From Ignavibacteria bacterium (lineage in GTDB: Bacteria; Bacteroidota; Ignavibacteria; Tepidaquicellales; OLB5): a stretch of 64,000 nucleotides of DNA. The stretch covers positions 1,313,970 to 1,377,969 of the forward strand of contig JAFLBX010000001.1 of the NCBI GenBank assembly GCA_017303675.1, given 5' to 3'. Under the pieces are notes generated by a model. That model made no database searches. It was given only the letters and a program-made list of their open reading frames with translations, and was not told where the DNA came from. The translations under genes were made by a program, and so were the position numbers. Position 1 is the first letter of the stretch, and the number at the start of each line of letters is the position of its first letter. Shown here piece by piece: positions 19,819 to 29,114 of the stretch.

Positions 19819-21471
19819 ATGGATATAAAACAATACGTATCGGATAAGTTTAAAAATGCGCTCTGCTCACTTGGGGTTGATGGTGCATCCGTTATTCTTG
19901 AAAGGCCTAAAGATGCTGCCCATGGTGATATTTCATGCAATGCGGCAATGATGTATGCCAAAAAGCTCGGCAAAAATCCGAAGGATTTTGCGCTGTCAAT
20001 AATTGAAGAGCTTGCCCTGCCGGATGAGTATATAACAAAAGCATCAGTTGCAGGTCCCGGATTTATAAATCTTTTTATTGCAGATAAATTTTACGCAGCA
20101 AAGCTTGCAGAAATAAATGAGCTAAAAGGTAATTTTGGCAGGTTAAATGAAAATGCAGGTAAAACCGCAGATATTGAATGGGTGAGCGCGAATCCCACCG
20201 GTGAGCTGCATACCGGCCACGGCAGGCAGACTGCACTTGGTAAAGCTATAGCTAATCTGCTTGAGTGGACAGGGTATAAAGTAACACGCGAATATTACTA
20301 TAATAATGCCGGTAAGCAGATGGATAATCTTGCGAGATCTGTATATGCCCGTTACAGGCAGATATATGAGCCGGAATATGAATTCCCTGAAGACGGTTAC
20401 GCAGGTGATTACGTAAAAGAAATTGCCGCAATACTTGATAAGGAACACGGGGACACACTTATAGATTCAGATGATAAAATTTTCCGCGAAGCCGGCGAGA
20501 ACTGGTGTTTTAAATCAATCAGACAAACACTGCATAATTTTAGCATCACTCATGATATATTCTTCAATGAAAGCTCTTTATATGAATCAGGTAAGATCAC
20601 CGAAACGCTTGAAGAATTCAAAAAGCGCGGCTTATCATACGAAAAGGACGGGGCTGTTTGGCTGAAAACAAGTGAGCTACTGAAGAATAAAAAAGATGCC
20701 GCCGATAAAGTGATCGTTAAAGCTACCGGTGAGCCAACGTACAGGCTGCCTGATATGGCATACCATATTGATAAATTAAAACGCGGGTATGACCTTATAA
20801 TTGATATTTTCGGTGCAGATCACGGTGATACTTATAAGGAAGTATTGGCCGGAATTGAAGGCCTTGGATATGATACATCAAAAATTAAGGTGATAATTCA
20901 CCAGATGGTTACCTTTGTGCAGGACGGCAAACCTGTAAAAATGAGCAAACGCGCTGATAATGTGTATACCCTCAATGACCTGATCGAAGATATTGGTGTT
21001 GATGTTACGCAATTCTTTTTTGTGATGAGAAGCGCTAATACACATTTGGAATTTGATATTGCACTTGCTCGCGAGCAGTCTGATAAAAACCCGGTTTTCT
21101 ACCTGCAGTACGCGCATGCAAGGATTTGCAGCATCTTAAGGAACGCTGCTGAAGTATTCCCCGAATACAGCTCTAAAGGTAATATAAATTACAGTTTGCT
21201 TGATTCCCCAGAGGCATTAAGCCTGATGAAGATACTCAGCGCTTTTCCGGAAACAGTAGCATCAGCCGCAGCGACATTTGAGCCGCATAAAGTAATTACA
21301 TACCTGAACGAAGTTGCGGAGAATTATCACAGGTTCTACCATAACAACCGCGTAATTGATGCCGAAGCAAAGGAGCTTTCATATGCAAGGTTAAAGCTTT
21401 GCGAAGCTGCGCGGATTGTGCTGAAAAACGGGTTTGATATAATCGGGATCTCTGCGCCGGAGAGAATGTGA
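19819..21471 (+). CDS. argS: Arginyl-tRNA synthetase
   Basis: Class I aminoacyl-tRNA synthetase charging tRNA-Arg. The HIGH motif appears as HTGH (131-134, in ANPTGELHTGHGR) and the KMSKS loop as KMSKR (374-378). The N-terminal Add1 domain and C-terminal DALR anticodon-binding domain (YLNEVAENYHRFYHNNRV) are complete. 550 aa is normal. ATG at 19819, 14 bp after a GGG-rich stretch but without a clear Shine-Dalgarno. Confidence 0.96.
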   Translation: MDIKQYVSDKFKNALCSLGVDGASVILERPKDAAHGDISCNAAMMYAKKLGKNPKDFALSIIEELALPDEYITKASVAGPGFINLFIADKFYAAKLAEINELKGNFGRLNENAGKTADIEWVSANPTGELHTGHGRQTALGKAIANLLEWTGYKVTREYYYNNAGKQMDNLARSVYARYRQIYEPEYEFPEDGYAGDYVKEIAAILDKEHGDTLIDSDDKIFREAGENWCFKSIRQTLHNFSITHDIFFNESSLYESGKITETLEEFKKRGLSYEKDGAVWLKTSELLKNKKDAADKVIVKATGEPTYRLPDMAYHIDKLKRGYDLIIDIFGADHGDTYKEVLAGIEGLGYDTSKIKVIIHQMVTFVQDGKPVKMSKRADNVYTLNDLIEDIGVDVTQFFFVMRSANTHLEFDIALAREQSDKNPVFYLQYAHARICSILRNAAEVFPEYSSKGNINYSLLDSPEALSLMKILSAFPETVASAAATFEPHKVITYLNEVAENYHRFYHNNRVIDAEAKELSYARLKLCEAARIVLKNGFDIIGISAPERM

Positions 21472-23848: not shown

Positions 23849-25039
23849 TTATTTTACCAGTACAAGTTTTTTAACTGAAGTGAAGCTCAATTCATTACCC
23901 GTTACCATTATGCGGTATATGTATATACCGCTTGCAATATTTGTACCGTCAAATGTTGCTGTGTAGTAGCCTGCATCCATTTTGGAATTTATCAAAGTGC
24001 TGACAAGTCTTCCGGTCAGGTCATATACAGAAATATTAACTGAAGCGTCAACCGGCAGCTGGTAATCAATTTTAGAAACAGGGTTTGAAGGATTGGGGTA
24101 GTTCTGTGATAGATCAAAATTAACGGGTCTGCCGATATCAACAGGGTAAGCTGCGTTAAAAATTTCGTAATTACCGTTCAGGTCAATTTGTTTTAAGCGG
24201 TAATTGAACTTTCCATTTCCGGGTTTAATATCTGTAAAAGTATAGAATTTCTGTTCGCCGGTTGTACCGCTTCCTTCAATAAATCCGGCTTTAACCCATG
24301 TGGAAAGATTCCCGTTCTTATCAATTGACTGGCGGTGTATTTCAAAGCCGGCATTATTTATTTCACCCATAGTGCTCCATTCAAGCTTCACATCTTTTTT
24401 CTGCACGAAAAGTTCGAACGAAGCAAGGCTGACAGGAAGCGCGTAATCTGTAATAAGCGTTACGCTTAAGTTTGGTTTTGAGGGATCGTTGGTAGTTAAG
24501 ACCATATTTCCGTTAGGCGCATCAAGCTGCGGCGTATTACCGCTTTTTGACATACCTATGGCATTGGTTGCCCTTACTGTAAATAAGCCGCTATCACCGG
24601 GTGCTATTGCACCGGGAAGTGAAGTGAGCAATTGAAAATCAGCCGCATATGAGCCTGTATAATTAACCGCGCTTACGCTTAAGTTTGCTGTTCCTGAATT
24701 TTTAATATAAAAATCTTTATCAACAAAAGAGCTTTGTGGAATAACACCGAAATCAATTGTTGTATCAGCGGAGCTGTTAACCCTGGCAGCAGAGCTGGTT
24801 GTGCCTAAAGTTCTTACGAATGTAATTCTGATGCTGTCATAAGTTGGCGCATCGCCTGATGCGACATCATAATTTAAAAATCTCCAGTTACCTGAAGCAG
24901 ATGTACCGTTATAACCGCGCATAGTGATTTCAGGGTAAAATGTACCGTTGGTATACGGTGGTGATACCTGGTACCAGAATTGCGATGCAGAGTCGCTGAC
25001 ATATGCACCGGTGATATTATCTGATGTAGAACCGTTTTT
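23849..25039 (-). pseudogene. C-terminal part of the subtilisin-like protease, behind an in-frame amber codon
   Basis: This stretch continues the reading frame of the protease at 25040-27265. Only one TAG (25042-25040) separates them, and 39 codons of clear coding character lie between that TAG and the first ATG at 24922. The content is the second half of a P-like domain (NGSTSDNITGAYVSDSA, SGNWRFLNYD), an ASPM-type Ig-like domain (IDFGVIPQSSFVDKDFYIKN) and a T9SS sorting domain (LSQNYPNPSNP...VKKLVLVK). Without readthrough these are lost, together with the export signal. A late start at 24922 would give a product with no signal peptide. Confidence 0.75.
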
Positions 25040-27265
25040 CTAAAACAGGCACTTTCTGTTATTATTATTATCTGAAATTGGTGACCATATATATAAAATA
25101 TTATCGCTTACCCAAGTATGACGAAGATAAATCCGTACTTTTGTACTCAGTATCTTAAAATCACTGAAGTTCACTGATCCGGAAACACCGGCACCTCCAT
25201 CAGGGGGTGACCAGGCGGAAAGCTTGTTGGTAGATTCAGTTAAGCTGCCAACGGCAAAATAGCAAAGCCAGAAAGTATTTGGAGCGCCTTTTGGGAAGTA
25301 TGCTATGTTGCCGGAAAAATCTACGGCTTTAATGTAATACTGTACTTCGGTTTCCCATCCGAAGCAGGGAATATTAAAGTAAAAATTATTTCCTGAATTT
25401 GATGAAGCGTAAAGTGAATCAAATGAGCTCCATCCCGCATTATTTTTATTTGAGCGGTAAATAACCATGGGCATTGAAGTGCCGGATGTTGGAACACTTG
25501 CTCCGTCATGATCTGTAATATTTGCTGTAAGCAAAGTCTGGTAGGTGCTGTTATGGCTTGCAGCGTTAGTATGATTTATTGATGGCGGGATTACATCTGT
25601 ACCTGCAGCAAGTCTGACAGAATTATATGCATTTATTCTGCCATAACCATAATAATCATTCCACTTGCCGTATGTTTTGGATGATGAGTAGGGAACATTA
25701 TCTATTTTATCACAACCATATAATAAGTTCTGCGTTACCTGCAGCCTGGTTTGTGAGGTATTTACTGAAAGCACAAGCGCTGCAACTCCTGCTGCATTTG
25801 GGCAGGAGCATGATGTCCCGTTGAACACATCGTAGTAATCACCGGATGTGCCTGCTGCTGTGTTGTAGCCGCTGGATCCCTGCCTGTCAATAGTATAACA
25901 GACAGTTGGCGCAACGCATTCTATATCACCGGTAGAAACTGATTCACCGTAATTTCCGCCCCACCAGTACTGGTTGCCGGTACCCGGCGCTTTTTTCTGA
26001 TCATGAGTTGTAGAAGCTCCGACGCAAATTACATTTGCCAGATATGATGGATAGGAAGGAGGGTTTCTTCCATCATTACCTGATGAGAACAGTATTATAC
26101 AACCAAGTCCGCCTCTGCCTGATGTTGCCGCACTATTTATAGCATTAGTCATTGTGGCATTTACAGAACCGCCTCCCCAGCTATTGCTCAGAACATCGAT
26201 TCCGCGAACGCGCGCAGTATCAAATGATCTTGCGATACCTGTTGTTGTAGAGCTTCCTGCAGCATTGAAAATCCTTAGCGCCATCAGCTTGCAGTTTGGT
26301 GCAATTCCTGAAATGCCAAGCGAATTATTTGTTACTGCGCCTATCAGTCCTGCTGTACAGGTTCCGTGGCTGCCTGAATCACGGGGAACTGTGTTTGTAT
26401 TGTAATAACCGTCATAACCGGGAAGCAAGTGGCCTGATGATTGAAAATCAGGGTGGGTGGAATCAATACCGGTATCGAAAACGCCAACTTCGATAGAAGA
26501 AGAGCCCATGGTGTAATCCCATGCCTGGGTTAAGCGCATATCTGCGCCTGCTAAACCGTTTACGGTTGTGCCGTCGCCGGCACCGGATACACCGCCTGTT
26601 GTAACATTTTGCGCTGTATTGTTAACCGCCCATTGTGAAGAAAAGTACGTATCATTTGGTGTATAATGCAGTAAACAGAATTCAGGATATAAGAAGTTAG
26701 GCTCGGCATACTCAAATATTGACGAAGAATAATAAATATCAGAAAGCTCAAGCGCATTTTTATTGACGCCGGGAAGTGATCTTATCAGAAATCCTTTTTT
26801 ATCGCCAACATTCCCTAAAATTATGCAGCGGTTTTCAGCATTAAGCCTGTTTAGTGCTTCCAGGTGTTTTTCGTCCTTAATTCTTACAATAAATTCATCT
26901 GTTGGCACCTGTATCACTCTTTGTGAAGAGCCGTAATAAGTTTTTGTAATGAATTTAATTCCCGGAATTCCCACCAGCGACTGCAAGGCAGAATTTACTC
27001 TTGAAAATACTTTGCTTCCGGATAATGTTATAATAATAACTTTTTCATCCGCAATTTTTACGGTATCAGAAGCAGAAAGCCGGTTTTTAATTCTTTCTGA
27101 AATATTCTGAACGGTAAAGGAAGTGTTATCTGTAATAACTGCCAGCTTATCATCTCTTTGTTCAAGCATTACCGGGAGGCCATTATAAAAATAATAATTC
27201 ACCTCAGCATAGGCAGAATGCAGTGAAAACAAACAGATGAAAACAGCAGTTAACAGTAATTTCAT
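25040..27265 (-). CDS. Subtilisin-like (S8) serine protease, truncated by an amber codon
   Basis: 741 aa: signal peptide (1-20, ending LHSAYA), a pro-region (about 21-200), and a peptidase S8 domain with the catalytic triad Asp264 (VGVFDTGID), His300 (SGSHGTCTAG) and Ser485 (NGTSCSCPNAAG), plus the oxyanion Asn397 (SSGNDG). The Ser motif is unusual: GTSMSAPH is replaced by GTSCSCPN. After the catalytic domain comes a beta-domain and the first half of a P-like domain, which stops at TAG within the run DNNNNRKCLF. The rest of the domain follows in the same frame. The gene begins 12 bp behind parB and is likely the last gene of the UPF0173-parA-parB transcript. Confidence 0.85.
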   Translation of the reverse strand: MKLLLTAVFICLFSLHSAYAEVNYYFYNGLPVMLEQRDDKLAVITDNTSFTVQNISERIKNRLSASDTVKIADEKVIIITLSGSKVFSRVNSALQSLVGIPGIKFITKTYYGSSQRVIQVPTDEFIVRIKDEKHLEALNRLNAENRCIILGNVGDKKGFLIRSLPGVNKNALELSDIYYSSSIFEYAEPNFLYPEFCLLHYTPNDTYFSSQWAVNNTAQNVTTGGVSGAGDGTTVNGLAGADMRLTQAWDYTMGSSSIEVGVFDTGIDSTHPDFQSSGHLLPGYDGYYNTNTVPRDSGSHGTCTAGLIGAVTNNSLGISGIAPNCKLMALRIFNAAGSSTTTGIARSFDTARVRGIDVLSNSWGGGSVNATMTNAINSAATSGRGGLGCIILFSSGNDGRNPPSYPSYLANVICVGASTTHDQKKAPGTGNQYWWGGNYGESVSTGDIECVAPTVCYTIDRQGSSGYNTAAGTSGDYYDVFNGTSCSCPNAAGVAALVLSVNTSQTRLQVTQNLLYGCDKIDNVPYSSSKTYGKWNDYYGYGRINAYNSVRLAAGTDVIPPSINHTNAASHNSTYQTLLTANITDHDGASVPTSGTSMPMVIYRSNKNNAGWSSFDSLYASSNSGNNFYFNIPCFGWETEVQYYIKAVDFSGNIAYFPKGAPNTFWLCYFAVGSLTESTNKLSAWSPPDGGAGVSGSVNFSDFKILSTKVRIYLRHTWVSDNILYIWSPISDNNNNRKCLF

Positions 27266-27277
27266 ATATTTAAAAAA

Positions 27278-28210
27278 TTATTTTTTACAGAGATCTATTA
27301 TCCGCTCAAGATCTTCAGCGGTGTAATATTCAATAACAATTGTACCTGTTGTGGGTGAGGAAGGGCTTAAACGTACCCTGGTGCCGAAATGCTCCATGAA
27401 CTTTTCTTCGAGAAATTTTATAGCAGCCTTATTCTGGTCGGTAATTTCGTAGATCTTCTTTTCTCGCGGAGCTGTTTTTGATTTTTTCTTTTTTGTCAGC
27501 TCTTCGGTCCTGCGGACGCTTAGATTTTCAGATGTAATTCTTTTCCATAGGAGCATTTTATCAACATCATTATCAAGCGCAAGTATAGACCTTGCATGAC
27601 CCTCGGATATTTCTCCTTTTTTGATGCTGAGCTTAATTTCTTCGGGAAGCGTTAAAAGCCTTAGTGTGTTGGCAACAGCGCTCCTGGATTTGCCTACTTT
27701 AACGGCTACATCTTCCTGCCTGAGGGCGCATTCATCTATAAGTCTTTTGTAACCTTCGGCAACTTCAATTGAATTCAGGTTAGCGCGCTGAATGTTCTCA
27801 ATAAGCGCGATTTCAAGCAAATCTTCTTTGGAAGAAACATCAATCACAAATGCAGGGATCTTTTCTATGCCGGCAAGCTTTGAGGCACGGAGTCTTCTTT
27901 CACCTGAAATAAGCTCGTACGTGCCGTCTTCCATTTTTCTGACAGTAATAGCCTGGATAACGCCTTTTTGTTTAATGGATTCAGCCAGGTCATTCAGCTC
28001 AGAACTGTCAAATTCTTTACGGGGCTGGTATGGATTAGCTTTAATATTTTCCAGTTCAATAAAAAGGATCTGTTCGTCACTTTTTGGATTAAGCTCTGTA
28101 ATGTTTCTGTGAAATTCAGGGACGCTCTGAGATTGTTCTGCTGATTCAGAGCCTCCGAAGAGCACATCAAGACCTTTTCCGAGTCCGCCTTTTGGTTTAT
28201 CTTTAGACAT
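27278..28210 (-). CDS. parB: Chromosome-partitioning protein ParB
   Basis: CTP-dependent DNA clamp that loads at parS. Features are the N-terminal ParA-stimulating GLGKGLDVLFGG (9-20), the CTPase/DNA-binding core with GERRLRASKLAG (103-114), IENIQRANLNSIEVAEGY, a helix-turn-helix (RQEDVAVKVGKSRSAVANTLRLL), and a C-terminal dimerisation segment. 310 aa is normal. It lies 16 bp behind parA. I found no perfect parS palindrome (TGTTTCACGTGAAACA) by eye in the window. Confidence 0.95.
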   Translation of the reverse strand: MSKDKPKGGLGKGLDVLFGGSESAEQSQSVPEFHRNITELNPKSDEQILFIELENIKANPYQPRKEFDSSELNDLAESIKQKGVIQAITVRKMEDGTYELISGERRLRASKLAGIEKIPAFVIDVSSKEDLLEIALIENIQRANLNSIEVAEGYKRLIDECALRQEDVAVKVGKSRSAVANTLRLLTLPEEIKLSIKKGEISEGHARSILALDNDVDKMLLWKRITSENLSVRRTEELTKKKKSKTAPREKKIYEITDQNKAAIKFLEEKFMEHFGTRVRLSPSSPTTGTIVIEYYTAEDLERIIDLCKK

Positions 28211-28226
28211 AATAATTCAATTATTG

Positions 28227-29114
28227 TTACCTTATATTTTGGTTAACATTACTGCTTTCACCGCCTGTTGGCGGGTCATTTTCTTTGTTGACAACTTCAA
28301 ATTTCGGCGCATCGTAAGTGAGGATATTATCGAACTTCTGCATTTGTTCTTTGCCGTTCCGGCGGAGGAACTCATTTGCAAGCTCAGTGTAATTTTTTGC
28401 GCCAACAGATAGCGGATCATATACAACAACGGGCTTTCCGAAGGAAGGGGATTCGCTGATCTTAACATTACGCATAACTTTTACAGGGTACAGCTTATCC
28501 TGGAAATATTTTTCCAGCTCACTTGCAACCTGGTTTGAAAGCCTTAACCTTGCATCAAACATAGTAAGAAGGTATCCTTCAATTTCGATCTCAGGGTTCA
28601 GGCGTGATTTTATCATTTTTATTGTATTTAGCAGAAGCGTTAAGCCTTCTAGCGCGTAATATTCGCTTTGCACAGGTATTAATACAGAATCTGACGCTAC
28701 AAGTGAATTCAACGTAATTAAGCTGAGCGATGGAGGGCAATCAATAAAAATGAAATCAAAATACTCTTTGATTTCATCAAGCCTTTTTTTAAGTATGAAC
28801 TCACGCTCAGGCATTGATACTATTTCTATTTCTATGCCAACAAGATTTATGTTGGAACAGATTATAAACAGGTTTGGAACCTCGGTCTGCTGAACGCATT
28901 CTTTAGGGGCGGTAACGCCGGTCAACAGCTCATATACCGAGCCTTTCATTGAATTGGTGGAAAAGCCGAGGCCTGATGTGGCGTTTGACTGCGGGTCAAT
29001 ATCAACAAGCAGAACTTTGCAGCCGCAGGATGCAAGAGCAGCGCACAGGTTCACTGCTGTCGTTGTTTTGCCAACACCGCCTTTTTGATTAGCTATTGAA
29101 ATTATCTTTGACAA
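28227..29114 (-). CDS. parA: Chromosome-partitioning ATPase ParA (Soj)
   Basis: Deviant Walker A ATPase KGGVGKTT (11-18), Walker A' DIDPQSNATSGLG, Walker B FIFIDCPPSLSLIT, and the Soj-type MFDARLRLSNQV segment. 295 aa; the last 40 residues after the conserved FLRR are a family-atypical tail. It works with ParB to separate replicated origins and forms one transcription unit with UPF0173 upstream (9 bp) and parB downstream (16 bp). Confidence 0.95.
   Translation of the reverse strand: MSKIISIANQKGGVGKTTTAVNLCAALASCGCKVLLVDIDPQSNATSGLGFSTNSMKGSVYELLTGVTAPKECVQQTEVPNLFIICSNINLVGIEIEIVSMPEREFILKKRLDEIKEYFDFIFIDCPPSLSLITLNSLVASDSVLIPVQSEYYALEGLTLLLNTIKMIKSRLNPEIEIEGYLLTMFDARLRLSNQVASELEKYFQDKLYPVKVMRNVKISESPSFGKPVVVYDPLSVGAKNYTELANEFLRRNGKEQMQKFDNILTYDAPKFEVVNKENDPPTGGESSNVNQNIR

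Follow-up and report, generated by a model that had tools for sequence, protein, structure and literature searches.

Organization of the interrupted gene

The window, a 64,000-nucleotide stretch from a 3.65-Mb, two-contig Ignavibacteria genome, carries on its minus strand a frame encoding a subtilase (S8) with P-like and Ig-like domains and a sorting tail for type IX secretion. The frame runs from 27265 to 23849 and consists of 1138 codons plus the final stop. Translation confirmed the original prediction that it is open throughout except for a single TAG at 25042-25040, which is codon 742. The open reading frames on either side of this codon span 25040..27265 (741 residues) and, starting from the next ATG, 23849..24922 (357 residues). 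The features of the locus are as follows.

28227-29114, minus strand: parA, of the chromosomal parAB pair, upstream of the protease
27278-28210, minus strand: parB, adjoining the protease, whose start comes 12 bases after
25040..27265, minus strand: upstream part of the frame, with an N-terminal hydrophobic signal-peptide-like segment, pro-region, subtilase domain, Ig-like region, and first portion of the P-like domain; ends at the TAG
25640..26497, minus strand: Peptidase_S8 (subtilase) domain, residues 257-542 (Pfam PF00082, E 1.5e-37)
24800..25186, minus strand: P-like beta domain holding the TAG, residues 694-822 (limits approximate), assigned from the sequence pattern and from related domains elsewhere in the genome
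25040..25042, minus strand: in-frame TAG, codon 742; serine (TCC/TCT) in 6/6 genus orthologues
23849..25039, minus strand: downstream part in the same frame, with the remaining P-like domain, a HYDIN/VesB-like Ig region, and the sorting tail
about 24766-24575, minus strand: HYDIN/VesB-like Ig region, within the downstream part
23894..24100, minus strand: Por_Secre_tail, type IX secretion C-terminal sorting domain (PF18962, E 8.7e-9)

The catalytic motifs of the S8 family were all found, namely those of Asp (VFDTGID), His (SHGTC), and Ser (NGTSCS), and the Por_Secre_tail match bears out the earlier assignment of a sorting domain to the downstream part. The P-like domain fell below the Pfam threshold, also when an intact orthologue was scored, and the structure model obtained for the orthologous region was poor (mean pLDDT of 49). 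Taken whole, the gene has the attributes of a type IX-secreted subtilase, with PF00082 and PF18962 in one frame and the gene for the SprA translocon in the same genome; the tail is missing from the predicted product of 741 residues. The whole genome holds at least 150 matches to the sorting-tail region of the protease, giving a very large predicted secreted set.

The codon at the stop in related genomes

Orthologues were drawn from the same genus, family, and order, and 39 genomes were covered. Intact orthologues, 75-85% identical to the protease, were found within the genus in G001, G002, G005, G008, and G012, the copy in G005 being spread over two contigs and that in G001 being truncated by the end of a contig. 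In the tree, G002 is the sister of the window's genome. The nearest orthologues run gap-free through the TAG with 83-85% identity over residues 690-860, in agreement with the earlier reading that the codons after the stop continue the same protein. The motifs NNNNRKCLF before the TAG and DNITGA after it are common to the genus orthologues, and their conservation indicates that the reading frame is correct before and after the stop.

The codon aligned with the TAG is TCC or TCT (Ser) in the genus orthologues, whose next codon is GAA, GAG, or CAA against AAA in the window, and serine also occupies this position in most of the order-level relatives. The parental codon was therefore most likely a serine codon rather than the Tyr, Gln, or Trp codon originally proposed. 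Apart from the window's own genome, no stop at this position was found in any orthologue among the 39 genomes. The TAG may have arisen by substitutions at the Ser codon or by a pair of slips within the A/T run that offset each other.

Accuracy of the assembly

The main rival to a genuine mutation is a base-calling or assembly error, the organism itself having a sense codon and an intact gene. Such an error would account for the rest of the frame being intact and strongly constrained. Moreover, the TAG lies within an A/T-rich run, TTTTAGAAAAAC, in which homopolymer miscalls are plausible, and two compensating single-base slips would also yield the observed sequence. The AAT repeat, which had been suggested to promote a local error, was discounted, as it encodes NNNNRKCLF and this is the same in every genus orthologue. 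When 115 frames of G002 (44,629 residues) were compared with a 400-kb sample of the window's genome, no clear internal lesion was observed and one ambiguous case was seen near a 5' end; an error at the TAG would itself have required a substitution or two cancelling slips. Among the genes compared in the window, the protease alone carries a lesion. The assembly therefore looks accurate, which lowers, without removing, the chance of a sequencing error at the TAG. An error was deemed unlikely, and we infer that the mutation is real.

A complex mutation or a patchy misassembly around the TAG was rejected on the basis of a scan statistic, which detected no local cluster of changes. Gene conversion from a paralogue was likewise not supported, the nearest P-like domains in the genome being just 32-37% identical. 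Opposite positions 260671-261234 and 206837-207415 of the same 400-kb sample, two genes on contig C1 of G002 look broken (one frame change and one internal stop), and both are intact in the window's genome.

Decoding of TAG

TAG is an ordinary working stop in this organism. C-terminal ends were checked against a relative for 87 genes, from the 400-kb sample taken as stretches; 16 of the 87 end in TAG, and for all 16 the relative's gene stops no more than 12 codons away. Release factor 1 (RF1, prfA) is present in the genome. The search for a suppressor tRNA proposed in the original prediction gave a negative result, since none of the 43 tRNAs (loci located by Rfam model and all typed with ARAGORN) has a CUA anticodon. 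Genome-wide reassignment of TAG was rejected from these data.

The same data bear on readthrough, in which some ribosomes would pass the TAG to give a long secreted form beside a short periplasmic one. This explanation is favored by the purifying selection that still acts on the downstream half (see below) and by the wide reporting of bacterial in-frame stops with maintained constraint (PMC7918605). It is opposed by the decoding of TAG as a normal stop with RF1 and without a CUA tRNA, and by the failure of the stop to be conserved in any relative. The RNA following the stop is also not unusual: no stimulatory structure was found 3' of the TAG, where the fold was slightly better than that of shuffled sequences (z of -1.5). 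Furthermore, among the genome's matches listed for the subtilase, P-like domain, and sorting tail, this was the only internal stop. Readthrough was consequently considered highly improbable. Of the three origins initially put forward, the alternative of a very recent mutation or an assembly error stands as the best interpretation, and it is readthrough that the decoding and conservation data do not support.

A different subtilase, on contig C225 of G001, also has one in-frame TAG, at codon 12 of frame 2 and near the contig end.

Selection on the two halves of the gene

Purifying selection was found to be strong on both halves of the gene and equally so (dN/dS about 0.05). The dN/dS relative to G002 was 0.047 upstream of the TAG and 0.059 downstream, with synonymous sites near saturation, and residues unique to the window at genus-invariant sites amounted to 3.3% before the TAG and 3.4% after it. 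Neither measure gave any sign of relaxed selection downstream of the TAG. The downstream half shows no excess change, although relaxation following a recent mutation would be undetectable by these measures. The equal constraint on both halves suggests that the mutation is recent and that the gene is not a long-established pseudogene. The downstream half was thus under selection along almost the entire branch, as would be expected of a recent mutation. Readthrough would explain this as well, but the other tests argue against it. The branch to the nearest relative compared is long and dS is saturated, so that the age of the mutation is not datable.

Loss of the gene within the genus

The distribution of the protease in the genus is patchy and includes at least one clean deletion. 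The orthologue in G003 is disrupted by a single-base frameshift at about residue 700, some 40-50 codons before the TAG site. G010 (99% complete) has cleanly lost the protease: the outer-membrane-protein and cupin genes, which in the window lie beside the protease, come immediately after parB, and on contig C218 (5693-5857) the 3.4-kb protease gene is missing between parB and the outer-membrane-protein gene, with the flanking order kept. No orthologue was found anywhere in G004, G006, G009, or G011 (94-99% complete); in these genomes parB is next to the counterpart of the window gene at 19819. Since the gene is frameshifted in G003, cleanly deleted in G010, and absent from four more near-complete genomes, it is dispensable. 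The original prediction had taken further decay among orthologues as the mark of a plain pseudogene; such decay was found in part, as a frameshift in G003 and a complete deletion in G010. The parB-protease order is common to G002, G012, G008, G003, and G005.

Within the genus, 2 of 7 copies (those of the window and G003) have a lesion near the point where the P-like domain begins. The proximity of the G003 lesion, about 40-50 codons upstream, and the outcome of both lesions, a catalytic domain without the tail, could point to adaptive truncation, in which a useful 741-residue form would uncouple the protease from type IX secretion. The lack of any extra amino acid change in the upstream half is also in keeping with this. 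However, two nearby lesions can be due to chance, neither coincides with a clean domain end (each truncates the protein within the P-like domain or shortly ahead of it), and whole-gene loss in other members of the genus is better explained by dispensability. Adaptive truncation was thus deemed very unlikely. A combined scheme, in which the TAG would act as a leaky switch, low-level readthrough splitting the output between a tail-less periplasmic protease and a full-length type IX-secreted one and the G003 frameshift providing a second route to the short form, was regarded as highly improbable.

Interpretation and comparison with known systems

The explanation that we favor, and consider probable, is a recent and real nonsense mutation that converted a conserved serine codon to TAG in a type IX-secreted subtilase now entering pseudogene decay. 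Translation would stop after 741 residues. The predicted product would keep the signal-peptide-like start and the catalytic domain but break off within the P-like domain, short of the sorting tail. Since the genome has SprA and many sorting-tail proteins, a product without the tail should no longer be secreted, as judged from the families concerned. On the same grounds the product would reach the periplasm at most, to be trapped or degraded there, and it is therefore described as probably periplasmic or degraded. The downstream part has no export signal and would not be made in useful quantity. The open reading frame from the next ATG (24922) starts MRGYNGTSASGNWRF and, having no signal peptide, could not provide an extracellular tail in trans.

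The feature is real and was described correctly, but it is ordinary, being most likely a nonsense allele of recent origin in a dispensable secreted protease; its main rival is sequencing error. It cleanly illustrates the initial stage in the loss of a secreted protease, in a genus in which other species have already frameshifted or deleted the gene, and it illustrates that a single in-frame stop in the genome of an uncultured organism need not imply recoding. Its wider weight is small.

The case resembles the bacterial nonsense pseudogenes and in-frame stop alleles described previously (PMC7918605) in having a single stop in an otherwise intact, constrained gene within a narrow lineage. As for such alleles, the orthologues have a sense codon at the site and TAG is decoded as a stop. 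To limit artefacts, Belinky et al. 2021 (PMC7918605) required at least two species to share a stop, whereas the TAG of the protease occurs in one genome only. The features of a readthrough gene were not observed, the stop being confined to one species and accompanied by neither a suppressor tRNA nor a stimulatory RNA structure. An in-frame UAG within a protein-coding frame is also seen in pyrrolysine and other UAG recoding, but here there is no CUA tRNA, the UAG is not conserved, and the genus orthologues have serine and no special residue. Compared with Bacteroidota subtilases (MEROPS S8, PF00082) that have a P-like domain and a type IX tail, the protease has the same domains and catalytic motifs together with SprA; it differs in that its P-like domain goes unrecognized by Pfam at threshold and in that the window copy is interrupted.
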